Made by a program: the position numbers and the translations under genes. The notes under the pieces were generated by a model, which saw only the letters and a program-made list of their open reading frames with translations, had not been told where the DNA came from and made no database searches. This document shows positions 7,874 through 64,000 of a DNA stretch of 64,000 nucleotides, piece after piece. Position 1 is the stretch's first letter, and each line of letters begins with the position of its first letter. The DNA comes from Cryobacterium gelidum (GTDB lineage: Bacteria; Actinomycetota; Actinomycetes; Actinomycetales; Microbacteriaceae): assembly GCF_004403985.1 (NCBI RefSeq), contig NZ_SOHL01000003.1, forward strand, positions 135,212 to 199,211. Reading direction: 5' to 3'.

Positions 7874-10441
7874 CTAGTTCGCGACCGCGACGAGACCCAT
7901 TTCGGCCGGGCTGATCAGCAGGTCATTCCGGGGAACGACGCGAACGGTATAGCCGAAGGTGCCGGCCCGGTCGAGTTCGACCGTTCCCGTGAACAGGGTG
8001 GCCTCGCCGGCTGGGGCTTCTGTTAGCGGAGCCGGCTTGAGCGCCTGAATGGCCACATCCCGTAGCTCGTCGGTGCCGAGGCTCTTGCCGTAGACCACCT
8101 CGACGGTCACGTCCTCGGCCGAGAGCCCGCCGAGCTGCACGTGCGCGCGCAGGTGCAGGTCATCGCCCACTTCCGGAACCGAGGAGACGCCGCCGGATTC
8201 GACGTGGGTCACCGCGATCTGCGGCCAGGCCGAAACGATTCGCCCCTTCCACGCCGCCAGTTCGCGAGCCGCACGGTAGTTGTTGGCCGACATCAGCGCT
8301 TCGTAGTGCCCGGCCGGGCGGTACAGGCGCTGCACATACTCACTCACCATGCGGTCAGCGGACAGTTCCGGTGACAAGGTGGCGAGGGTGTGACGAATGT
8401 TGGACACCCAGCGTTCGGGCACGTCATCGTCGTTGCGTTCGTAAAAGGTCGGTGCTACCTGATGTTCGATCAGGTCGTAGAGTGCCTCGGCTTCGAGCCG
8501 GTCACGTTCGGCGGCGTCGCCGGCCGAATCGGCCGATGGAATCGCCCAGCCATTCTTGCCGTCGTAGTATTCCGGCCACCAGCCGTCGAGGATCGACAGG
8601 TTGAGCGCGCCGTTGAGTGCAGCTTTCATGCCGCTGGTACCGCAGGCCTCGAGCGGGCGCAGCGGATTGTTGAGCCAGACGTCCGTTCCCGGATACATCA
8701 GCTGGGCCATGGCAATGTTGTAATCGGGCAGAAAAGCGATGCGGGTGCGCAGTTCGGGGTCGGCGGCGAACTGCACGATCTTCTGGATCAACCGTTTGCC
8801 CTCTTCATCGGCGGGGTGGGACTTGCCGGCGATGACGATCTGAATCGGATGCTCCGGGTGCAGCAGGAGGGCACGCAGGCGTCCCGGATCATGCAGCATC
8901 AAAGTGAGGCGCTTGTAGGTGGGAACGCGACGGGCGAACCCGATGGTCAACACGTTCGGGTCGAACACCCGGCCGATCCAGGCCGGCGGGATGCTGCCTG
9001 GATTCTGGTCGCGCCAGGCGCCCAGCAGCCGGCGGCGGGCATCCTCGACGAATTGCAGGCGCATCCGCCCGCGCACCGACCACAGGTCCTGGTCGGACAC
9101 CGCAGGGGAGGCCCACTTAGCCGTCGACGTGTCACTCGTGCCGAGCTTGTCCTGCGCGAGGCTCTTGAGCGCCGGGTCGGTCCAGCTTTGGGCGTGCACA
9201 CCGTTCGTGATCGACGTGATCGGCACATCCGCTGAATCAAAGCCAGGCCAGAGGCCGTTGAACATGCGGCGGCTGACCTCGCCGTGCAGGGTGGAAACAC
9301 CATTGGCGTGCTGGCCGAGGCGCAACCCCATGATGGCCATGTTGAACACCTCGGAGGAGCCTCCGGCATAACTTTCCGCGCCGAGCGCGAGCAGGTCTTC
9401 CACGTCGACACCCGGCAGCAGATCGGTGCCGAAGTAGCGACGCACGAGTGAACGCTCAAACCGGTCGATGCCGGCGGCGACCGGGGTGTGCGTGGTGAAG
9501 ACGGTTCCGGCGCGGGCCACCTGCAGAGCTTCCTGAAAGTTCAGGCCTTCACCGATCAGGCTGGAGATGCGCTCGAGGCCGAGGAACCCGGCGTGGCCCT
9601 CGTTGGTGTGGAACACCTCGGGCTCGGGCAGCCCGTGCAGCGAACTCCACAGTTTCACGGCGCGGGCGCCGCCGATACCCAGGAGTAGCTCCTGCAGCAA
9701 TCGGTGTTCGCCGCCGCCGCCGTACAGGCGGTCCGTGACCAGGCGCAGGTCGTCGGCGTTTTCAGGAATGTCGGCATCGAGCAGGAGCAGGCGCACGCGA
9801 CCCACCTTTGCCTGCCAGACCCGGGCATGCAGGGTGCGGTCGTCTGGCAGGGCGAGCGACACCTGAACGGCTGAGCCGTCGGCGCGGCGCAGTACGGCCA
9901 GCGGCAGCCCGTCGGGGTCGAGCAGGGGGTAGCTTTCCATCTGCCACCCGTCGGGCGAGATGGCCTGGCTGAAGTAGCCGGCGCGGTAGAACAGGCCGAC
10001 GCCGACGAGCGGAAGGCCGAGGTCGGAGGCGCTCTTGAGGTGGTCACCGGCCAGAATACCCAGCCCGCCGGAATACTGCGGGAGGGCGGCGGCGATGCCG
10101 AATTCCGGTGAGAAATACGCGATCGCGGCGGGTTTTTCGCCCTCGATCCCCTGGTACCAGCGTGGCTGTTCGAGATAGTCGCGCAGCGCGTCGCGCGTGG
10201 CATTGACCTCGGCAACGTAGTCGTGATTCTGCGCCAGCTCATCGAGCCGGCGCGGATCCACAGCACCAAGCAGGGCGACGGGATCAGTTCCGATCTCGCG
10301 CCACAGCTCAGGGGCGATGCGCTCGAACAGCTGCCGGGTGGGCTCATGCCACGACCAGCGAAGATTGCCGGCAAGCTCCTCAAGGGCCGCGAGAGGCTCG
10401 GGAAGAACGGCACGGACGGTAAATTTGCGGATGGCCTTCAC
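7874..10441 (-). CDS. glgP: alpha-glucan (glycogen) phosphorylase
   Basis: GlgP releases glucose-1-phosphate from non-reducing ends of alpha-1,4-glucans by phosphorolysis, using PLP. The 855-residue protein begins VKAIRKFTVRAVLPEPL, as in the actinobacterial GT35 subfamily, so the GTG at 10441 is chosen over the longer open frame. The PLP lysine sits in CGTSGMKAALNGALNLS, followed by DGWW. It belongs to the short bacterial/archaeal-type phosphorylases rather than the animal-like MalP type. It is transcribed divergently from glgE across about 180 bp, so the two may share regulation. It converges on glgX. Confidence 0.93.
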   Translation of the reverse strand: MKAIRKFTVRAVLPEPLAALEELAGNLRWSWHEPTRQLFERIAPELWREIGTDPVALLGAVDPRRLDELAQNHDYVAEVNATRDALRDYLEQPRWYQGIEGEKPAAIAYFSPEFGIAAALPQYSGGLGILAGDHLKSASDLGLPLVGVGLFYRAGYFSQAISPDGWQMESYPLLDPDGLPLAVLRRADGSAVQVSLALPDDRTLHARVWQAKVGRVRLLLLDADIPENADDLRLVTDRLYGGGGEHRLLQELLLGIGGARAVKLWSSLHGLPEPEVFHTNEGHAGFLGLERISSLIGEGLNFQEALQVARAGTVFTTHTPVAAGIDRFERSLVRRYFGTDLLPGVDVEDLLALGAESYAGGSSEVFNMAIMGLRLGQHANGVSTLHGEVSRRMFNGLWPGFDSADVPITSITNGVHAQSWTDPALKSLAQDKLGTSDTSTAKWASPAVSDQDLWSVRGRMRLQFVEDARRRLLGAWRDQNPGSIPPAWIGRVFDPNVLTIGFARRVPTYKRLTLMLHDPGRLRALLLHPEHPIQIVIAGKSHPADEEGKRLIQKIVQFAADPELRTRIAFLPDYNIAMAQLMYPGTDVWLNNPLRPLEACGTSGMKAALNGALNLSILDGWWPEYYDGKNGWAIPSADSAGDAAERDRLEAEALYDLIEHQVAPTFYERNDDDVPERWVSNIRHTLATLSPELSADRMVSEYVQRLYRPAGHYEALMSANNYRAARELAAWKGRIVSAWPQIAVTHVESGGVSSVPEVGDDLHLRAHVQLGGLSAEDVTVEVVYGKSLGTDELRDVAIQALKPAPLTEAPAGEATLFTGTVELDRAGTFGYTVRVVPRNDLLISPAEMGLVAVAN

Positions 10442-44137: not shown

Positions 44138-44171
44138 ACGCTCACAATTGCCCCGCTTCGAAAGGATGCTG

Positions 44172-46886
44172 ATGCCAGCTTCGAATGAAACCGCTTCCGC
44201 GTATTCTGCCCCAGACCCCACGGCTATCGCTGGGGATTCGACACACGCCGTCACATCGACGAGCCCAGCGGATGCCGCCGTGCACACTCCTGAGGTACCT
44301 CGCCGTGTCATCGTGATCGGTGGCGGCCCCGCCGCGCACCGCCTCACCGATGCCCTGCACTCTCGTGACACCGAACACACCCTGTCGATCGTCGTACTGA
44401 CCGAGGAGAACCACCGCCCCTACGACCGAGTCGCGCTGAGCCAGCGGCTCGCCGGAATGGTCGACCTCACCCTCGAGCCCACAGCGCCATGGGACAGCGA
44501 GCGCATCACGCTGCGCATCCACGAGCGAGCCACCCGGATCGACCCGATCGCACGCACCGTCACGACATCGACCGGTGCCGTGCTCGAGTATGACGACCTC
44601 GTGCTCGCCACCGGGTCGAGCGCCCCCGTGCCAAAGATGCCGGGCCGGGAACACATTCGGGTGTATCGCACCCTCGACGACGTCGACGCCCTCGTCGACG
44701 AACTCACCGCTCTCACGGCCTCGCTCGGCCGCACCCCGCGGGTCGTGGTGGCCGGCGGCGGGCTGCTCGGCCTCGAAGCGGCCGGCGGACTGCACGCGCT
44801 CGGCGCCGAGGCGGCCATTGTGCACTCCGGGGGCTGGCTGATGTCGGCCCAGCTCGACGAGGGCGGCGGTCAAGCCCTCGGCCGGCTCATCATCGCTCAG
44901 GGCATCGAGCTACACCTCGGCACCCGGGCCCGCACCATACTGGCCACGCACGACAACACCGCGGTGACCGGCCTGCAGCTCGGCAACGGCCAGGAAATTG
45001 CCGCCGACCTGGTCGTCTACGCGATCGGAATCTCGCCGCGCGACGAGCTGGCGCGCGCCGCCGGACTGACCATTGGCACCCGCGGCGGCGTCACGATCGG
45101 CAACGACTGCCGCACGAGCGATGCGAATATCTGGGCGATCGGCGAAGTCGCCAGCTGGAATGACCGGTGCGTCGGCCTCGTGGCTCCGGCCAATGCCATG
45201 GCCGAAGTGGTCGCCGACCGGCTGCTCGGCGGCACGGCGGAGTTCACGACCGTCGACGATGCCACCAAACTCAAACTCTCCGGCATCGATGTGGCCAGCT
45301 TCGGCGACGCCCTGGCGACCACGCCGGGCTCGCTCGAAATCGTCTTCGCCGACCCGGCCCGCGGGCTGTACCAGAAGCTCGTCATGACCGACGACGCCAA
45401 GTCCCTGCTCGGCGGCATCTTCGTCGGCGACGCCACCCCCTACTCGGCGTTGCGCCCGATGGTCGGCCGGCAGCTGCGCAGTGAGCCCGCCGCGTACCTC
45501 TCGGCGGCCGGTGCCGAAGCTCCGGCCGGCGACGAACTGCCCGATGACGCCCTGGTCTGCTCCTGCAACATGGTCTCGGCCGGCGCGGTGCGACAGGCCG
45601 TGCGCGGTGACGACACGAGCGCAGACAATGCGCGTGGCGCCTGCACCGAACTCGGCGCCCTGAAGACCTGCACCCGGGCCGGCACCCAGTGCGGTTCGTG
45701 CGTGCCGCTGGTCAAGAAGATCCTCGAGGCCGAGCTGACGGCATCCGGTCACATCGTCTCGCACACCCTGTGCGAGCACTTCGAACTGAGTCGTCAGGAG
45801 CTGTTCGACTCTGTGCGGGTGCTCGGGCTGGTATCGAGCGACGAGATCTTCTCCCGCTTCGGCGCCGGTCGCGGCTGCGACGTCTGCAAACCGGCCGTCG
45901 GCTCGATCCTGGCCAGCCAGAACACGTCCTACATTCTGGATGCCGGCCGCGGCACCCTGCAGGACACCAACGACCGCGCCCTGGCCAACATGCAGAAGGA
46001 CGGCACCTATTCGGTCGTCCCGCGCATTCCAGGGGGCGAGATCACGCCGACCAAACTGGCCGTGATCGCGCAGGTCGCGCTCGACTTCGACCTCTATACC
46101 AAGATCACCGGCGGGCAGCGCATCGACCTGTTCGGTGCCCGCCTCGAGCAGCTGCCCGACATCTGGCGCATTCTGGTCGACGCCGGGTTCGAGTCGGGCC
46201 AGGCCTACGGCAAAGCGCTACGCAACGTGAAGTCCTGCGTGGGGTCCACCTGGTGCCGGTTCGGCGTGCAGGATGCCGTCGGCCTCGCGATTCGACTCGA
46301 GCTGCGCTATCGCGGGCTGCGCGCGCCGCACAAATTCAAGTTCGGGGTGTCGGGCTGCGCCCGGGAGTGCGCCGAAGCCCGGGCCAAGGACGTGGGCATC
46401 ATCGCAAGCGACAACGGGTGGAACATGTACGTCGGCGGCAACGGCGGCTTCCAGCCCGCGCACGGGCAGCTGCTCGCAACCGACCTCGACGAAGAAACCT
46501 TGATCAGGCACATCGACCGTTACATGATGTACTACATCCGAACGGCCGATCGCATGCAGCGTACCGCCCGCTGGATGGAGGATCTGGACGGCGGCCTCGA
46601 GCATGTGCGCGACATCGTCATCAACGATTCGCTCGGCCTCGGCGAGGAACTCGAACAGGCCGTGCTCGCCCACGTCGACAACTATGAAGACGAGTGGGCG
46701 GCGACGCTCGCCGATCCGGATCGCCTGCGCCGGTTTCGCTCCTTCGTGAACGCCCCGACCGAACCCGACCCGAGCATCGCCCTCGTTACGGAGCGTGACC
46801 AAATACGACCGGCGACCCCGGCCGAACGGGCCGAATCGAGTACTCTGCTCCTAAGCGGAAGCCGTATTCCCGTTCGAAAAGAGTAA
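44172..46886 (+). CDS. nirB: nitrite reductase (NADH) large subunit
   Basis: NirB reduces nitrite to ammonium with NADH electrons. The 904-residue protein contains, in order, an FAD/NAD(P) domain (RVIVIGGGPAAHR; VVVAGGGLLGLEAAGGL), a BFD-type [2Fe-2S] domain (CSCNMVSAGAVRQAV, CGSCVPLVKK), and sulfite/nitrite reductase repeats with the siroheme-[4Fe-4S] cysteines (SCVGSTWCRFG, GVSGCARECAEA). ATG 44172 follows AAAGGA (44162-44167). It heads nirB-cobA-hemD, with NirD on the other side of the same control region. Confidence 0.95.
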   Translation: MPASNETASAYSAPDPTAIAGDSTHAVTSTSPADAAVHTPEVPRRVIVIGGGPAAHRLTDALHSRDTEHTLSIVVLTEENHRPYDRVALSQRLAGMVDLTLEPTAPWDSERITLRIHERATRIDPIARTVTTSTGAVLEYDDLVLATGSSAPVPKMPGREHIRVYRTLDDVDALVDELTALTASLGRTPRVVVAGGGLLGLEAAGGLHALGAEAAIVHSGGWLMSAQLDEGGGQALGRLIIAQGIELHLGTRARTILATHDNTAVTGLQLGNGQEIAADLVVYAIGISPRDELARAAGLTIGTRGGVTIGNDCRTSDANIWAIGEVASWNDRCVGLVAPANAMAEVVADRLLGGTAEFTTVDDATKLKLSGIDVASFGDALATTPGSLEIVFADPARGLYQKLVMTDDAKSLLGGIFVGDATPYSALRPMVGRQLRSEPAAYLSAAGAEAPAGDELPDDALVCSCNMVSAGAVRQAVRGDDTSADNARGACTELGALKTCTRAGTQCGSCVPLVKKILEAELTASGHIVSHTLCEHFELSRQELFDSVRVLGLVSSDEIFSRFGAGRGCDVCKPAVGSILASQNTSYILDAGRGTLQDTNDRALANMQKDGTYSVVPRIPGGEITPTKLAVIAQVALDFDLYTKITGGQRIDLFGARLEQLPDIWRILVDAGFESGQAYGKALRNVKSCVGSTWCRFGVQDAVGLAIRLELRYRGLRAPHKFKFGVSGCARECAEARAKDVGIIASDNGWNMYVGGNGGFQPAHGQLLATDLDEETLIRHIDRYMMYYIRTADRMQRTARWMEDLDGGLEHVRDIVINDSLGLGEELEQAVLAHVDNYEDEWAATLADPDRLRRFRSFVNAPTEPDPSIALVTERDQIRPATPAERAESSTLLLSGSRIPVRKE

Positions 46887-46890
46887 GCAG

Positions 46891-47700
46891 ATGACAGGCC
46901 AAAGTTCCCGCTCAGTTGGGCACGTTCCCCCCGGCCAGGTCACCCTCGTCGGCGGCGGCCCCGGCGCCGCCGAGCTGCTGACCGCGGCTGCGACCGAGGC
47001 GCTCCGGCACGCCGATATCGTGCTGTTCGACCGCCTCGCGCCGAATGACGAACTGGCGACGCTCGCACCGAACGCCACTCTCATCGATGTCGGTAAGCGC
47101 GCCGGGAGTCACCCGGTGTCACAGACCGGCATCGAACAGTTGATGGTCGATCACGCGTTGAGCGGCAAGCGGGTCGTGCGGCTCAAGGGCGGCGACCCGT
47201 ATGTATTCGGGCGCGGCAGTGAGGAAGTTCTCGCCTGCCACCGCAATGGCATTGCCGTGACCGTCATTTCCGGAGTCACCAGTGCGATCGCGGTGCCGGC
47301 GGCGGCCGGAATTCCGCTGACCCACCGCGGCATGAGCCACGCCTTCACCGTGATCAGCGGCCACGCGCCGCTCACCGAAAATGAGCTGGAAGGTTTGAAA
47401 CTGCTCGGCAGCACCGTCGTCGTGCTGATGGGCGTGGGTACGTTGCCCACGCTGAGCCAGGGTTTGCTGCGACACGGCATGTCCCCCGACCTTCCCGTGG
47501 CCATAATCGAGCGCGGATTCAGTGCCACCCAGCGCACCACCGTGAGCACACTGTCGGCAGTCCTGGCTGACGCCGCCACGGCTGGAGTGCGCAGCCCCGC
47601 CGTGCTCGTGATCGGCGAAGTCGTGCGCCTGGCTTTTCGTGGCGACGACGCCGCGGAAGACCTCGTGGCCCGAGCGGCGGCGTTCGCGGTGAACGACTGA
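46891..47700 (+). CDS. cobA: uroporphyrinogen-III C-methyltransferase
   Basis: This SAM enzyme methylates uroporphyrinogen III twice to precorrin-2, the first step toward siroheme. The 269-residue protein carries TLVGGGPGAAELLT, VVRLKGGDPYVFGRG and GVTSAIAVPAAAGIPLTHR. It lacks the extra dehydrogenase/chelatase domain of CysG, so those activities must come from elsewhere; CbiX is nearby. It starts 4 bp after nirB. Confidence 0.94.
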   Translation: MTGQSSRSVGHVPPGQVTLVGGGPGAAELLTAAATEALRHADIVLFDRLAPNDELATLAPNATLIDVGKRAGSHPVSQTGIEQLMVDHALSGKRVVRLKGGDPYVFGRGSEEVLACHRNGIAVTVISGVTSAIAVPAAAGIPLTHRGMSHAFTVISGHAPLTENELEGLKLLGSTVVVLMGVGTLPTLSQGLLRHGMSPDLPVAIIERGFSATQRTTVSTLSAVLADAATAGVRSPAVLVIGEVVRLAFRGDDAAEDLVARAAAFAVND

Positions 47701-48884
47701 TGGCGACAATGAGCGACGGGAGCGGTACGGATTCGGGTGCCGGGGCTGCAGAATCCGCCGCGTCTGATCTACCCGCACCGGTCTTGCAGCCGAATCAGCT
47801 CGAAGGTTTTCGTATCGGTGTCACGAGCGATCGGCGCTCCAGCGACCTCATCGACGCCTTTGAGCGGCGCGGGGCCCGTGTCATGCACGCGCCGACCCTG
47901 CGCATCGCGCACGCCGAGCAGGAGAGCCCGCTGCTGGAGGACACCCGCACCATGATCGCTGCGCGGCCCGATATTCTGCTCGCCACCACCGGCTACGGCG
48001 TGCGGCGTTGGTTCGAGGTGGCCGAGGCAGACGGCATCGGATCCGAGCTGACCGACGCGCTGGCCGAGGCGATCATTCTGGTACGCGGGCCGAAAGCGCG
48101 CGGCGGCATTCGCGCGACCGGGCTGGCTGACTCCGGCATGAGTGACTCGGAGACGACGGCCTCGCTCGTCGACAAGGTTCTGACCGAGTATCCACCCGGG
48201 CTCGTCATTGGCATTCAGGTGCACGGTGCCACCGACGAGGTGCAGCTCGACCGGCTGCGCGCCGTGCATCAGCGCGTGCTCGTCGTCGCGCCCTACCGCT
48301 GGATCGCCATCGACGACACGGATGAGCGTGTCTACAAGCTCGTCGAGGCGATCTGTGCCCGCCAACTCGACTGCGTCACGTTCACGAGCGCGCCGGCCGT
48401 GCACGCCCTGTTCACCGCGGCAGAGGGGATGGAGGTGTATCCCGAGCTACTCGAGGCGCTGCAGACGCGGGTCTGCGCGGCGGCCGTCGGCCCGGTGACC
48501 AGCGCCCCGCTGATCGCGGCCGGGATCACGCCGATTCAGCCGACCCGGTTTCGCATGGGCGCACTGATCCGGCTGGTCTGCGAGCACCTCGAACAGAACA
48601 TGATCGAACGGGTCGAGACCCGGAACGGGCTCCTGCAACTGCGCGGCTCGATCGCGCAGATCGGCGACGAGCGCGTGCAGCTGCCGCCGATGGCGCTCGC
48701 GATTCTGCGCACGCTCGTGCGCGCACGCGGGGCGGTCGTCTCCCGCGACGACCTCACCCTCGCGCTGGCCGGCGACTCCGACGATCACGCCATGGAGGTT
48801 TCACTCAGCCGGCTGCGGCAAACGCTCGGCGTGCCCGGCCTGGTGGCGACCGTGGTGAAGCGCGGCTACCGCCTCAACGTCTAG
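47700..48884 (+). CDS. uroporphyrinogen-III synthase fused to a winged-helix domain
   Basis: A 394-residue protein. Residues about 35-290 are HemD-like (GFRIGVTSDRRSSDLIDAF, ATTGYGVRRWF, TFTSAPAVHALF, CAAAVGPVTSAPL). Residues about 305-394 form an OmpR/PhoB-type DNA-binding winged helix (LPPMALAILRTLVRARGAVV, VSLSRLRQTLGVPGLVATVV, KRGYRL). Similar fusions are known beside nitrite genes in mycobacteria and streptomycetes and are suspected nitrogen regulators. It may make uroporphyrinogen III for CobA, bind DNA, or only bind DNA. The start overlaps the cobA stop (TGATG). Confidence 0.88.
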   Translation: MATMSDGSGTDSGAGAAESAASDLPAPVLQPNQLEGFRIGVTSDRRSSDLIDAFERRGARVMHAPTLRIAHAEQESPLLEDTRTMIAARPDILLATTGYGVRRWFEVAEADGIGSELTDALAEAIILVRGPKARGGIRATGLADSGMSDSETTASLVDKVLTEYPPGLVIGIQVHGATDEVQLDRLRAVHQRVLVVAPYRWIAIDDTDERVYKLVEAICARQLDCVTFTSAPAVHALFTAAEGMEVYPELLEALQTRVCAAAVGPVTSAPLIAAGITPIQPTRFRMGALIRLVCEHLEQNMIERVETRNGLLQLRGSIAQIGDERVQLPPMALAILRTLVRARGAVVSRDDLTLALAGDSDDHAMEVSLSRLRQTLGVPGLVATVVKRGYRLNV

Positions 48885-59190: not shown

Positions 59191-59394
59191 GTTCCTAGCC
59201 TACGGGGGCTACACCGTCTTGCGCGGCGCCCGCCTAGCGCCTGCTCCGTTCCCTGCACCCTGTGTGACGCTTCGTGACAGCGTGTGACAACACGTGACCC
59301 CCTCGCTGTCCCCTCTTCGCGCGGCGCACTAGCGTGAGAAGCGTTGCTCCGGTTTGTGAACACCGAGGCGACGCCGCAAACCGAGGGAGCCGAC
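59191..59394. promoter_or_regulatory. divergent control region of ftsY and sir
   Basis: 204 bp holding the GTGAC array at 59264-59298, a -10 candidate TAGCGT (59330-59335) for sir, and the ribosome site AGGGAG (about 59383-59388). The ftsY promoter should lie in the left half. Confidence 0.5.
59264..59298 (+). repeat. four GTGAC elements at 10-bp spacing
   Basis: GTGAC occurs at 59264, 59274, 59284 and 59294, one per helical turn. Relative to a start near 59342 the array spans about -78 to -44, where an activator would bind. The bases between the elements are not conserved. Confidence 0.85.
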
Positions 59395-61152
59395 GTGCCG
59401 AACGAAACCGAGACGGTGCACACCACTGCGGCAGGGGCCGCGAACGCACCGGTGACAGCGACGACGCTGCCCGCAGCACGACCACCGCGGCCATCCACCC
59501 GTCCGAACGGCCAGTGGAAGATCGACGGCACCGAACCGCTCAACGGCAATGAGGTCTGGAAGCAGGTCGACAACGGCCTTGCCGTGCGCGGCCGCATCGA
59601 AGAGATCTATTCCAAGCAGGGCTTCGATTCCATTGACGGCACCGACCTGCACGGCCGTTTTCGCTGGTGGGGCCTCTACACGCAGCGCAAGCCCGGCATC
59701 GACGGCGGCAAGACCGCCACCCTCGAGCCCGAAGAACTCGAAGACCGCTACTTCATGCTGCGCGTGCGCATCGACGGTGGCCAGCTCACGACCGAGCAGG
59801 CCCGCGTGATCGGTGAGGTCTCCCGCGACTTCGGCCGCGATACCGCCGACATCACCGACCGCCAGAACATTCAGCTGCACTGGATCCAGATCGAGGACAT
59901 GCCAGAGATTTGGCGCCGCCTCGAAGCCGTCGGCCTTGAAACCACCCAGGCCTGCGGTGATGTGCCACGCGTGTTCCTCGGCTCCCCCGTGGCCGGTATC
60001 GCCGCCGACGAACTCATCGACCCCACCGAGTCGATCAACGAGCTCGCCCGCAAGTTTCTCGGCACCGACGAGTTCGCCAATCTGCCGCGCAAGTTCAAGA
60101 CCGCTATCACCGGTCACCCCAGCCAGGACGTCGTCCACGAGATCAACGACATCGGCCTCGTCGCCGTCGAGCACCCCGAACTCGGTATCGGCTACGACCT
60201 GTGGGTCGGCGGCGCGCTCAGCACCACCCCGCGCCTGGCCGAACGCCTCGGCGCGTTCGTGGCCGAAGACAAAGTGTCCGAGGTCTGGCGCGGCGTCGCG
60301 TCCATCTTTCGGGACTACGGCTACCGCCGCCTGCGCGGCAAGGCACGCCTGAAATTCCTCCTCGCCGAATGGGGTCCCGAGAAGTTCCGTCGTATTCTCG
60401 AAGACGAATACCTCGGCTACACCCTGCCAGACGGCCCCGCCGCGCCCCGCCCGAAGACGCAGGGCGACCACATCGGAGTGCACAAGCAGAAGGACGGCCG
60501 CTTCTACATCGGCGTCGCCCCGTTCGTCGGCCGCGTCTCCGGGCAGACCCTCGTGAAGCTCGCCGACCTGCTCGAGGCCCACGGTTCGACCCGGCTGCGC
60601 ACGACTCCGCACCAGAAGATCGTGGTGCTCGACGTCGCCGAGGAGCACGTGGAACCGCTCATCGCGGCCCTCGACGAGATCGGCCTGTCGGCCCGCCCGA
60701 GCCTGTTCCGCCGCTCCACCGTGGCCTGCACCGGCATCGAGTTCTGCAAGCTCGCCATCGTCGAGACCAAGCAGTCCGCAACGGATGCCATCCTCGAGCT
60801 TGAACAGCGCCTCGCCGACATCAACGCCCCACACCCCATCACCCTGCACGTGAACGGATGTCCGAACTCCTGCGCCCGTATCCAGACCGCGGACATCGGG
60901 TTGAAGGGCCAGCTGCTGCCGGACGGCAACGGCGGCTCCACCCCCGGCTTCCAGGTGCACCTCGGAGGCGGACTCGCCTCCGTCGACCGCGACGAGGCCG
61001 GTCTCGGCCGCACCGTGCGCGGCCTCAAGGTGACCGCCGAAGACCTCGCCGACTACGTCGAACGCCTCGTGCGGCGCTTTTTGGCCGCCCGCACCAACGA
61101 CGAAACCTTTGCCCAGTGGGCGCACCGCGCCGACGAGGAGGACCTCAAATGA
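59395..61152 (+). CDS. sulfite reductase (siroheme, ferredoxin-type)
   Basis: A 585-residue enzyme reducing sulfite to sulfide with six electrons. It has the duplicated nitrite/sulfite reductase half domains and the siroheme-[4Fe-4S] ligands ACTGIEFCK and NGCPNSCAR. Residues RNIQLHW-like (DRQNIQLHWIQ) and the substrate arginine/lysine region are present. GTG 59395 has AGGGAG 6 bases upstream; a TTG at 59344 would add 17 residues but has no site. A Pro/Ala/Thr linker fills the first 40 residues. It overlaps cysH by 4 bp and heads the sulfate operon. Confidence 0.9.
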   Translation: MPNETETVHTTAAGAANAPVTATTLPAARPPRPSTRPNGQWKIDGTEPLNGNEVWKQVDNGLAVRGRIEEIYSKQGFDSIDGTDLHGRFRWWGLYTQRKPGIDGGKTATLEPEELEDRYFMLRVRIDGGQLTTEQARVIGEVSRDFGRDTADITDRQNIQLHWIQIEDMPEIWRRLEAVGLETTQACGDVPRVFLGSPVAGIAADELIDPTESINELARKFLGTDEFANLPRKFKTAITGHPSQDVVHEINDIGLVAVEHPELGIGYDLWVGGALSTTPRLAERLGAFVAEDKVSEVWRGVASIFRDYGYRRLRGKARLKFLLAEWGPEKFRRILEDEYLGYTLPDGPAAPRPKTQGDHIGVHKQKDGRFYIGVAPFVGRVSGQTLVKLADLLEAHGSTRLRTTPHQKIVVLDVAEEHVEPLIAALDEIGLSARPSLFRRSTVACTGIEFCKLAIVETKQSATDAILELEQRLADINAPHPITLHVNGCPNSCARIQTADIGLKGQLLPDGNGGSTPGFQVHLGGGLASVDRDEAGLGRTVRGLKVTAEDLADYVERLVRRFLAARTNDETFAQWAHRADEEDLK

Positions 61153-61949
61153 GCGCCATCAACCTGAACGCGCGCGCTCGCAGCAACAGCGCCGCGGCAT
61201 CCGCTGCGCCCGCTCGTGCGTTGCCGGAGCGCCGGCCGGCCGCCGAGCTGCAAGCCCTCGCCGAGCAGGGTTCGGCCGAACTCGCTCAGGCCGCCGCAGC
61301 CGACGGGCGTGAGGCCACCGCCGCCGAGGTCATCGCCTGGGTCGCCCGAAACTTCAGCGCCGACGCCGTGGCCGTCGCCTGCTCCATGGCCGACGCGGTG
61401 CTGCCCGAGATCGTGTCGCAGCAGCTGCCCGGCATCGACGTGCTCTTTCTCGATACCGGCTATCATTTTTCCGAAACCCATGAGACTCGCGACGCCGTCG
61501 CGGCGACCTTGGCGGTCACCGTCGTCGACGTGCTGCCGCTGACGACGGTGCCGGAGCAGGACGCCGAGCATGGCGCCGAGCTGTTCGCCCGGGACTCCAA
61601 TGCCTGCTGCGCGATGCGTAAGGTCGAACCCTTGCAGCGTTCACTCGGCGGCTACGAACTCTGGTTCACCGGTGTACGCCGCGACGAAGCACCCACCCGC
61701 GCCAACACGCCGCTCGTCACCTGGGACGAACGCAACGGCCTGGTCAAGGTGAACCCGGTCGCCGCCTGGAGCTACGACGAGCTCATGGACTACGCCACCC
61801 GGCACCACGTTCCCGTGAACGTGCTGCTCTCCCAGGGCTACCCCTCCATCGGCTGTGCCCCCTGCACCCAGCCCGTCGCGGCGGGTGCCGATCCCCGTTC
61901 CGGCCGCTGGGCCACCCTCGAGAAGACAGAATGCGGGCTCCACCTATGA
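61149..61949 (+). CDS. cysH: adenylylsulfate reductase
   Basis: CysH reduces adenylylsulfate to sulfite. The 266-residue protein has the PAPS-reductase fold and the paired cysteines CCAMRK and CAPC that bind a [4Fe-4S] cluster, showing APS- rather than PAPS-type use; the catalytic cysteine is in the C-terminal ECGLHL. The start and stop overlap its neighbours as ATGA. Confidence 0.93.
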   Translation: MSAINLNARARSNSAAASAAPARALPERRPAAELQALAEQGSAELAQAAAADGREATAAEVIAWVARNFSADAVAVACSMADAVLPEIVSQQLPGIDVLFLDTGYHFSETHETRDAVAATLAVTVVDVLPLTTVPEQDAEHGAELFARDSNACCAMRKVEPLQRSLGGYELWFTGVRRDEAPTRANTPLVTWDERNGLVKVNPVAAWSYDELMDYATRHHVPVNVLLSQGYPSIGCAPCTQPVAAGADPRSGRWATLEKTECGLHL

Positions 61950-62878
61950 CCACTTTGCAAGTTTCAGCTGCACCGCAAACCGCCCACCGCCTGTCCGAAC
62001 TCGATGTGCTCGAGAGTGAAGCGATCCACATCATCCGCGAGGTCGTCGCCGAGTTCGAACGCCCCGTACTGCTGTTCAGCGGCGGCAAGGACTCCGTCGT
62101 CGTACTGCACCTCGCCGCGAAGGCGTTCTGGCCCGGCAGGATTCCGTTCTCCCTGCTGCACGTGGACACCGGTCACAACTTTCCCGAGGTGCTCGAGTTT
62201 CGCGACAAGACCGTCGCCGCGCACGGCGTACGTCTGACCGTCGCCAAGGTCGAGGATTACATCGCCGACGGCCGCCTGGCGGAACGCGCCGATGGCACCC
62301 GCAACCCCCTGCAGACCCTCCCTCTGCTCGACGCCATCGCAGCCGGTCGGCACGACGCCGTCTTCGGCGGTGCCCGTCGCGACGAAGACAAAGCGCGTGC
62401 GAAGGAGCGCATCCTCTCGCTGCGCGACGAATTCGGGCAGTGGGACCCGCGCAACCAACGCCCCGAACTGTGGAACCTCTACAACGGCCGCCACACCGTG
62501 GGACAGCACGTGCGCGCCTTCCCGATCAGCAACTGGACCGAACTCAACGTCTGGCGTTATATCGAACGCGAGAACATCGAACTGCCCCCGCTCTACTACG
62601 CCCACGAGCGTGAGGTCTACCGCCGCGACGACATGTGGCGCGCCGTCAGCCCGGTCAGCCCGGCACGGGCCGACGAGCCCATCGAACTTCGCACCGTGCG
62701 CTACCGCACGGTGGGCGATATGAGCTGCACCGGCGCGGTCGACTCGGCAGCGGCATCCGTTGCCGATGTCGTCCGCGAGGTGGGAGTGAGCACCATCACC
62801 GAACGCGGCGCGACCCGCGCCGACGACCGCATCTCCGAGGCCGCCATGGAAGACCGCAAGAAGGAAGGATATTTCTGA
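61946..62878 (+). CDS. cysD: sulfate adenylyltransferase subunit 2
   Basis: CysD activates sulfate to APS with the GTPase CysN. The 310-residue protein has LLFSGGKDSVVVLHLA (PP-loop), HVDTGHNFPEV and GGARRDEDKARAKERI. ATG 61946 overlaps the cysH stop. Unusually, cysN does not follow; an ABC binding protein overlaps the stop instead (TGATG). Confidence 0.94.
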   Translation: MTTLQVSAAPQTAHRLSELDVLESEAIHIIREVVAEFERPVLLFSGGKDSVVVLHLAAKAFWPGRIPFSLLHVDTGHNFPEVLEFRDKTVAAHGVRLTVAKVEDYIADGRLAERADGTRNPLQTLPLLDAIAAGRHDAVFGGARRDEDKARAKERILSLRDEFGQWDPRNQRPELWNLYNGRHTVGQHVRAFPISNWTELNVWRYIERENIELPPLYYAHEREVYRRDDMWRAVSPVSPARADEPIELRTVRYRTVGDMSCTGAVDSAAASVADVVREVGVSTITERGATRADDRISEAAMEDRKKEGYF

Positions 62879-63939
62879 TGAGAAATTCACTTCGTCTGGG
62901 CGCCCTGATGCTCGGAAGTACCCTACTTTTGAGCGGATGCGTCGCCGCGGTCGGCACGCAGCCCGCCACCGACCAGGGTCCAGCCGCCGAACTTCGCCTG
63001 GGCTACTTCGACAACGTCACCCACGCCGCAGCGCTCGTCGGGCTGCAGAACGGCTACTTCGCGGATGCCCTCGGCGACACGAAACTGAGCAGCCAGATCT
63101 TCAATGCCGGCCCGGCCGCCGTTGAGGCGCTCAGCGCCGGCGCCATCGACGCCGCCTACATCGGCCCGAGTCCAGCGGTGAACACGTTCATCCAGAGCCG
63201 CGGCGAGTCGGCCGTCATCGTGGCCGGAGCTGCCAGCGGAGGTGCCGCACTCGTCGTGCGTGACGGCATCGACAACGCGGCCGACCTGGCCGGCACCATC
63301 CTCGCCACCCCGCAGCTCGGTAATACCCAGGATGTCGCCCTGCGGTCCTGGCTCGATGATGAGGGCTACACGACCAGTACGACCGGCGGCGGCGAGGTCA
63401 ATGTCTCCCCGACAGAGAACGCGCAGACCCTGACCCTGTTCCAGAGTGGCAAGATCGACGGCGCCTGGCTGCCCGAACCGTGGGTGTCCCGACTCGTGCT
63501 CGAAGCCGGAGGCCACGTTCTCGTGAACGAAGCCGACCTGTGGGAGAACGGCGACTTTCCCACGACCGTGCTGCTCGTGCGCAAGGGCTTTCTCGAGGAG
63601 CACCCCGACACCGTGAGTGCCCTGCTCGAAGGGCACGTCACCGCGGTCGACTGGCTCACCCAGCACCCGGCCGACGCAGCGACCGTCATCAACGCGAAAC
63701 TCACGGCCGACACCGGCAAGGCTCTGGCCGACGACGTGCTGGCCCGCGCCCTGACCGAAGTGAAATTCAATGTCGACCCGTTGGCGTCGACCTTTCCGAT
63801 CTCGCTCGCCGAGGCGGTCAAGGCCGGCATCGGCAAGGACGGCGACCTGAACGGTCTGTTCAACGTGGCACTGCTGAACGCCGTACTGGCCAAGCACGCC
63901 GAAGAACCGGTCTCGGCCGGCGGATTGGGAACGGAATAA
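62878..63939 (+). CDS. ABC transporter substrate-binding lipoprotein (sulfonate/nitrate type)
   Basis: A 353-residue lipoprotein with signal and lipobox (LLLSGCVAAV, Cys near residue 21). The NMT1/SsuA-like fold is visible: LRLGYFDNVTHAAALVGLQN, AGPAAVEALSAGAIDAAYIG, LATPQLGNTQDVALRSWL, IDGAWLPEPWVSRL. It probably binds sulfonates or sulfate esters, given the operon, but taurine, nitrate or thiamine precursors are possible. It is coupled to cysD (TGATG). Confidence 0.87.
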   Translation: MRNSLRLGALMLGSTLLLSGCVAAVGTQPATDQGPAAELRLGYFDNVTHAAALVGLQNGYFADALGDTKLSSQIFNAGPAAVEALSAGAIDAAYIGPSPAVNTFIQSRGESAVIVAGAASGGAALVVRDGIDNAADLAGTILATPQLGNTQDVALRSWLDDEGYTTSTTGGGEVNVSPTENAQTLTLFQSGKIDGAWLPEPWVSRLVLEAGGHVLVNEADLWENGDFPTTVLLVRKGFLEEHPDTVSALLEGHVTAVDWLTQHPADAATVINAKLTADTGKALADDVLARALTEVKFNVDPLASTFPISLAEAVKAGIGKDGDLNGLFNVALLNAVLAKHAEEPVSAGGLGTE

Positions 63940-63943
63940 ACGC

Positions 63944-64000
63944 ATGACACTCACCATTGAGACTCAGATTCTTGCCAGCGAAGCCGCTGTCGCCGCTCCA
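63944..64000 (+). CDS. start of the next ABC transporter gene (partial)
   Basis: ATG 63944, 4 bases after the binding-protein stop, opens MTLTIETQILASEAAVAAP and runs off the window. Position suggests the ATPase or permease of the same transporter. The visible 19 residues show no motif. Confidence 0.5.
   Translation, partial: MTLTIETQILASEAAVAAP

Follow-up and report, generated by a model that had tools for sequence, protein, structure and literature searches.

We propose that a GlnR-like winged-helix regulator binds an array of four GTGAC boxes in front of the sulfite reductase gene sir of Cryobacterium gelidum, activates the sir operon from there, shuts down transcription of its own gene, and is produced under cysteine shortage. 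In our opinion this reading, which is built from sequence comparison, has a probability of roughly 0.7. The array exists and is conserved, its distance to the -10 element is fixed, related boxes stand at three kinds of promoter, and a leader with Cys codons precedes the regulator gene; from these observations we infer the winged-helix protein as the binder, the activation of sir, the self-repression and the gating by cysteine.

In the window (the whole stretch of 64,000 nucleotides that was analysed) the array reads GTGAC-GCTTC-GTGAC-AGCGT-GTGAC-AACAC-GTGAC, with a period of exactly 10, just as the initial annotation had described it (Table 1). That annotation had also placed the repeats at about -78 to -44 of the sir promoter, and here we agree: with TAGCGT as the -10 element, transcription of sir is predicted to start at about 59342, and the array therefore lies at -78 to -44. 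The start of sir was taken as the GTG at 59395; the listed open reading frame opens at an upstream TTG at 59344. A search of the window that tolerated up to 3 mismatches returned the array and one self-overlap, against 0.01 expected from 100 dinucleotide shuffles, and the sole exact four-box copy in the 3.47 Mb genome is the one before sir (reversed control, 0). Pairs of the form GTGAC-N5-GTGAC occur in the window at chance level (8 observed versus 7.0 expected at up to one mismatch), hence only the run of four is noteworthy. A three-box search of the same genome at up to 2 mismatches found nothing over chance except sir (the array accounts for 2 of its 16 rows; reversed control, 24).

Table 1. 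Features of the sir locus, in window coordinates
Feature	Coordinates	Strand	Remarks
Four-box array, where a GlnR-like sulfur regulator is proposed to bind	59264..59298	+	boxes 59264-59268, 59274-59278, 59284-59288, 59294-59298
-10 element of the sir promoter, TAGCGT (TANNNT)	59330..59335	+	31 nt past box 4
sir, ferredoxin-type sulfite reductase	59395..61152	+	Pfam NIR_SIR and NIR_SIR_ferr; NCBIfam matches under their cut-offs
cysH, phosphoadenylyl-sulfate / adenylyl-sulfate reductase	61149..61949	+	NF002537, 246 bits (cut-off 154)
cysD, sulfate adenylyltransferase small subunit	61931..62878	+	TIGR02039, 439 bits (cut-off 397)
SsuA-family substrate-binding protein (SBP)	62878..63939	+	TIGR01728, 172 bits (cut-off 163.5)
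cysN, start of gene	63944..64000	+	runs past the window end (L155:6156-7568); TIGR02034 above cut-off

Genes for an ABC ATPase and a permease follow cysN, and the four best named relatives of the Sir protein are all from Cryobacterium (94-96% identity). On the strand of sir, and some 10 kb ahead of it, the window also carries a nirB-like nitrite reductase gene, a tetrapyrrole methylase gene and a gene for a HemD/winged-helix (NnaR-type) protein (44148-48884).

The sir gene is near-whole in 39 of the 57 Cryobacterium genomes (it is in two pieces in G008, and G029 has a match of 27 residues). All 39 loci score 16 to 20 of 20 against four GTGAC boxes, the best of 1950 shuffles reaching 15; these shuffles, like those for the named genomes and for the regulator promoters of Cryobacterium and Agromyces, preserve base composition only, not dinucleotides. 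The boxes fit a period of 10 in 39/39 loci, in a scan that permitted this period only, and a TANNNT hexamer starts 31-32 nt after box 4 in every one of them. In each of the four boxes the A and C positions never vary. For box 2, 14 loci have GTGAC and 19 have GCTAC; for box 4 the readings are GTGAC (18), GTTAC (14) and ATGAC (7). The spacers are variable with the exception of a few columns, such as the G after box 1. The best match of the -35 region to TTGACA is 4 of 6 letters in 11 promoters, 3 in 10 and at most 2 in 18, so that 28 of the 39 have 3 or fewer; a match of at most 4/6 is what one expects if the promoter needs an activator. A poor -35 together with a conserved upstream site at a fixed distance is the arrangement of an activator-dependent promoter. 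The initial annotation had suggested a phased activator site before sir, an idea against which it would have counted a lack of conservation in relatives. Relatives do have it, and the constant distance to the -10 (39/39), the mostly poor -35 and the presence of an array at a relocated transporter gene (described below) speak in favour of a site at which an activator may bind cooperatively. In one locus (L305; G029:C79, near 9000-9221) array and promoter are retained and the sir match stops after a few dozen codons; the gene that follows the broken sir resembles what is presumably a transposase gene.

Arrays of a similar kind are found before sir outside the genus. Several Microbacterium loci have GTGAC-N5-GTTAC-N5-TTAAC-N5-TTGAC, many Arthrobacter relatives GTGAC-N5-RTTTC-N5-GTGAC-N5-GTTTC, and several Agromyces loci GCGAC/GTGAC boxes, mostly 30-32 nt before TANNNT (33 in Agromyces L083). 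No such array was seen at the sir loci of Cellulomonas, Oerskovia, Janibacter and Knoellia.

An exact scan of the 57 Cryobacterium genomes with the three-box pattern RTGAC-N5-RYKAC-N5-RTGAC gave 91 rows, corresponding to 69 distinct places, and the reversed control pattern gave 23 rows. Of these places, 39 lie at sir (the promoter of the G029 remnant plus those of 38 sir loci; G001 was missed), 3 at promoters of SBP genes (G002 was missed), 13 at promoters of a gene for a winged-helix regulator and 14 elsewhere, and the matches lie on the gene strand at 42/42 sir and SBP promoters and on the opposite strand at 13/13 regulator promoters. Places were assigned with the coordinates of 35 of the 57 regulator genes and of four relocated SBP genes, and the 14 unassigned ones were compared by eye with the contigs of the remaining regulator genes. 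Ten of the 14 are simple tandem repeats, as are four of the five three-box places inspected at G015:C41, G025:C1, G033:C42, G033:C66 and G037:C25. One tandem repeat of ATGACTGCTA occurs at G011:C10:5222, G012:C32:12627, G019:C46:2191 and G021:C62:15201, and is probably one mobile or repeated element. A narrower exact search with three GTGAC boxes had matched, apart from sir, the promoter of this winged-helix regulator gene in four genomes. The SBP promoters belong to genomes in which the SsuA-like gene lies far from sir or on another contig (G002, G008, G015, G051); in these four genomes a separate array of four boxes precedes the gene, with TAACGT 31 or 32 nt downstream of it. In G010 and G054 the SsuA-like gene is also off the sir contig, with the contig end too near for its upstream region to be read.

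The third kind of promoter belongs to the regulator gene itself, which in the genome of the window lies outside the window (G000:C13:21477-22181). We could use 56 upstream regions, one from each genome except G032, in which the script located no start. In these 56 regions TTGAC stands 36-37 nt before an ATG and the -10 is mostly TTTACT; with this spacing the transcript would begin at or beside that ATG, which opens a leader frame. GTCAC-like boxes lie at -29, -19, -9, +2 and +12 from the first T of TTGACA, over and around the -35. The three-box score is at least 12 in 44 of the 56 promoters as against 4 of 1680 shuffles, and at 7/7 Agromyces regulator loci it is 13-15, the best of 1400 shuffles reaching 12. 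In the control orientation 16/56 regulator promoters also score at least 12, therefore part of the signal is composition or the -35 itself; the orientation signal at this promoter is clear, not absolute. The exact three-box pattern is present in only 13 of 57, and the genome of the window itself has a regulator promoter with weak boxes only. Just upstream of the boxes, at -42 to -32 from TTGACA, the 56 Cryobacterium loci share an almost invariant GAACGTGrTGC, perhaps the site of a second factor.

The regulator, found in 57/57 Cryobacterium genomes, has about 234 residues and a C-terminal winged helix (Trans_reg_C, 77.6 bits in the G013 ortholog versus a curated Pfam cut-off of 26.2). Trans_reg_C was the only Pfam domain found; the N-terminal half gave no Pfam match, a sequence search of the PDB at E 1 with residues 1-131 of the protein from the genome of the window came back empty, and there is no Response_reg receiver domain by Pfam, so that the protein does not have the composition of a canonical two-component regulator. 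The nearest solved DNA-binding domains by sequence and fold include GlnR and PhoB, with GlnR first (8hml, 8hig). We rejected the idea that the protein is GlnR: it matches GlnR chains only across the DNA-binding domain (profile 139-229), and a separate protein in the same genome matches GlnR in full length (8hih_O over residues 3-213, E 5e-78). An alignment of 24 orthologs that range from Cryobacterium to Arthrobacter shows hardly any variation in ERTIDVH[VI]RRLR, the stretch around the recognition helix. An AlphaFold model (mean pLDDT 73.7, pTM 0.48) has a confident winged helix; in its N-terminal half only residues 41-80, without strands, are at pLDDT 82-91, and residues 1-29 are below 50. 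The best 50 of 219 Foldseek matches to the model are OmpR/GlnR/PhoB-type regulators, aligned mainly on the DNA-binding part.

The leader frame that opens at the ATG 36-37 nt after TTGAC has about 33 codons in 56/56 Cryobacterium upstream regions. Its product ends in CCRM plus two residues in 55 of them (40 CCRMCR, 12 CCRMSR) and in CCRSAHCRMAR in one. Outside the genus we examined 30 orthologs, which belong to Agromyces, Microbacterium, Curtobacterium and Arthrobacter relatives; 25 have similar leader ends, and the five without are L267 (where the gene starts at the contig end), L269, L270, L276 and L280. Thus 56/56 Cryobacterium genes and 25/30 other orthologs have what one looks for in an attenuator, namely Cys codons close to the end of a short frame that precedes a gene. 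In the genome of the window the leader (G000:C13:21196-21300; L216:1197-1301) reads MTTSARPLTS...ASRCCRMCR and is apparently leaderless, 37 nt after TTGACA; the leader RNA of this genome folds into a more stable structure than shuffles (z -2.6), which is no more than compatible with attenuation by cysteine. Under a looser criterion, candidate Cys-rich short frames are also seen before diverged regulator homologs in Brevibacterium, Oerskovia, Cellulosimicrobium and Sanguibacter. In the last three genera (L333-L336, L341) such a candidate leader (e.g. ...VMCVCCQA) accompanies a sir gene at which the GTGAC array was not seen; it is possible that the binding site has shifted in this lineage.

Array and regulator also tend to occur together beyond Cryobacterium. 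Out of 80 named sir loci we retained 50 named Micrococcales genomes, leaving out 6 Cryobacterium, 2 loci with less than 100 bases upstream and 22 further ones in excess of a limit of 50 loci (17 of them Arthrobacter relatives). With the regulator counted at E 1e-50 or better and the array counted with TANNNT at 30-32 nt, the regulator is present in 38 of the 50; the strict array is found in 28 of these 38 (10 fail the test) and in 2 of the 12 genomes without the regulator (Fisher test, p = 0.0007, kinship ignored). Brevibacterium renqingii has the array without a strict regulator match, but a diverged homolog is present. Microbacterium kyungheense is an exception, as it has the array and its regulator matches are only partial and C-terminal, of the general OmpR type. 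The 18 Cryobacterium genomes without a near-whole sir all retain the regulator and its Cys leader, hence further targets must exist; in five of them (G029, G030, G039, G046, G052) the regulator promoter keeps an exact three-box match.

According to our proposal, four DNA-binding domains would line up in head-to-tail order along a single DNA face at -78 to -44, just upstream of the -35, and the bound regulator would recruit RNA polymerase to the weak promoter of sir-cysH-cysD-ssuA-like-cysN-ABC. The relocated SBP gene would be activated in the same manner. At the regulator gene the boxes are reversed and overlap the -35, thus binding there should repress, and the regulator would limit its own synthesis. 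As for the input, a shortage of cysteine would make the ribosome stall at the Cys codons of the leader, more regulator would be made, and the sulfate operon would be switched on; the regulator is, as we see it, a product of cysteine shortage. The period of 10 instead of 11, and sulfur genes instead of nitrogen genes, are the reasons why we speak of a GlnR-like way of working and not of GlnR.

The candidate reader considered first was the HemD/winged-helix protein encoded in the window itself (47700-48881), which we take to be of the NnaR type and which could couple sulfite and nitrite reductase via siroheme. Siroheme is indeed also used by sulfite reductase, and this protein, an OmpR-type Trans_reg_C domain fused to HemD, is encoded next to nirB and the tetrapyrrole methylase gene. 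However, five genomes (G003, G010, G022, G023, G045) have sir and an array scoring 17-20 and give no NnaR-like match at E 0.001, the match in G032 covers only 67 residues, and nirB in the window has no array upstream at up to 3 mismatches. The five genomes rule out NnaR as a necessary reader, and that it reads the array in C. gelidum is very improbable. One of the general OmpR-type regulators (GlnR, MtrA, or else PhoP/RegX3) is a better candidate, though in our judgment still an unlikely one. According to passages of PMC10704036, GlnR boxes contain GTnAC and also occur as four tandem boxes, and MtrA has been reported to bind GlnR boxes in Streptomyces. The same passages describe an 11-bp repeat with a and b boxes alternating, as opposed to 10 bp in the sir array. 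Further, GlnR-like genes, recognised by a short motif in our script, are found in Janibacter, Knoellia, Antribacter, Oerskovia, Cellulosimicrobium and Sanguibacter, and the sir upstream regions there fail the array test, which is therefore evidence against GlnR as the reader. In the genome-wide scan the winged-helix gene was picked out by its own promoter; the promoter of this genome's GlnR gene was not.

It is a similarly doubtful suggestion that some other transcription factor reads all three promoters and that the winged-helix gene is only one of its targets. Promoter data do reveal a common site and not its binder, and the gene of one regulator can well be a target of another; on the other side, the winged-helix protein has a fold that binds direct repeats, is universal in the genus sample and stands under a Cys-rich leader, and the opposite orientation of the boxes at its own promoter (13/13 matches) fits autoregulation. 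We give almost no credence to the possibility that the array serves the divergent ftsY gene (SRP54 domains) and not sir, despite the start codon of ftsY (59190, minus strand) being just 74 nt away, because the array keeps a constant spacing from the -10 of sir in 39/39 loci, an array is also present before the SBP gene where this is relocated, and in 9 of 30 genus loci the array is kept with no ftsY motif within 1.5 kb upstream of sir (by motif search only). Just as little credence is due to the view that the array is a functionless simple repeat. GTGAC-like units repeated in tandem every 5 or 10 bp are indeed present at other places in the genus (G025:C1:3968026, G015:C41:45771), but the spacers of the sir array are unlike one another, its boxes are more conserved than the spacers and its distance to the -10 is fixed; conservation refutes this reading.

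Binding by the winged-helix regulator thus remains the reading we prefer, and a wider version of it, in which this apparently undescribed orphan family is the master sulfur activator in much of the Micrococcales with its synthesis gated by stalling at Cys codons, has in our view slightly better than even prospects. If true, the decoding of cysteine codons would be the sulfur sensor for a whole pathway, and another large group of actinobacteria would have a concrete regulator gene, site and likely input to its name. An attenuator would, moreover, be seen to govern a transcription factor and not pathway genes. The initial annotation had considered the pattern possibly new among actinobacterial sulfur regulators; in accord with this, the best-ranked matches from the open-licence PMC literature contained no regulator or site of such a kind, although one may have been published elsewhere.

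Several known systems resemble the proposed one in part. GlnR and PhoB both bind tandem direct repeats, those of the pho box being about one turn apart and lying over the -35. The likeness to PhoB consists in the winged-helix Trans_reg_C domain, supported by NCBIfam and structure matches, while the present regulator differs in having no receiver domain by Pfam and the sir array differs in lying upstream of the -35. With NnaR the regulator shares the type of DNA-binding domain, and NnaR adjoins siroheme-related genes; the difference is that NnaR is not found in five genomes that retain array and sir. GlnR itself, as described in parts of PMC10704036, places four DNA-binding domains head to tail on a four-site promoter and bridges to RNA polymerase, with a consensus GTnAC-n6-GaAAc and a box period of 11 bp. 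The two systems have in common four tandem sites, nutrient assimilation genes and the DNA-binding domain, that of GlnR being the closest among solved structures. In contrast to GlnR, the present system concerns sulfur genes and has a 10-bp period in place of 11 bp, a regulator whose N-terminal half has no Pfam or PDB sequence match, and a Cys-codon leader.

CysR of Corynebacterium glutamicum, according to portions of PMC2580772, switches on genes of sulfate reduction by way of a site that directly precedes the -35, and CysR/SsuR are ROK-type proteins that recognise the inverted repeat TGAAtnnAAt in dependence on O-acetyl-serine or O-acetyl-homoserine. The placement of the site before sulfate-reduction genes is alike, whereas the sir array is a direct repeat of GTGAC and not the inverted repeat TGAAtnnAAt. 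The leader of the regulator mRNA resembles that of the mycobacterial Cys attenuators in being a leaderless short open reading frame with Cys codons. Work by Canestrari in 2020 reportedly described such mycobacterial frames as cysteine-responsive attenuators before sulfur-related genes. These precede biosynthetic genes, whereas the leader described here precedes the gene of a transcription factor, and thus one attenuator could set a whole regulon.
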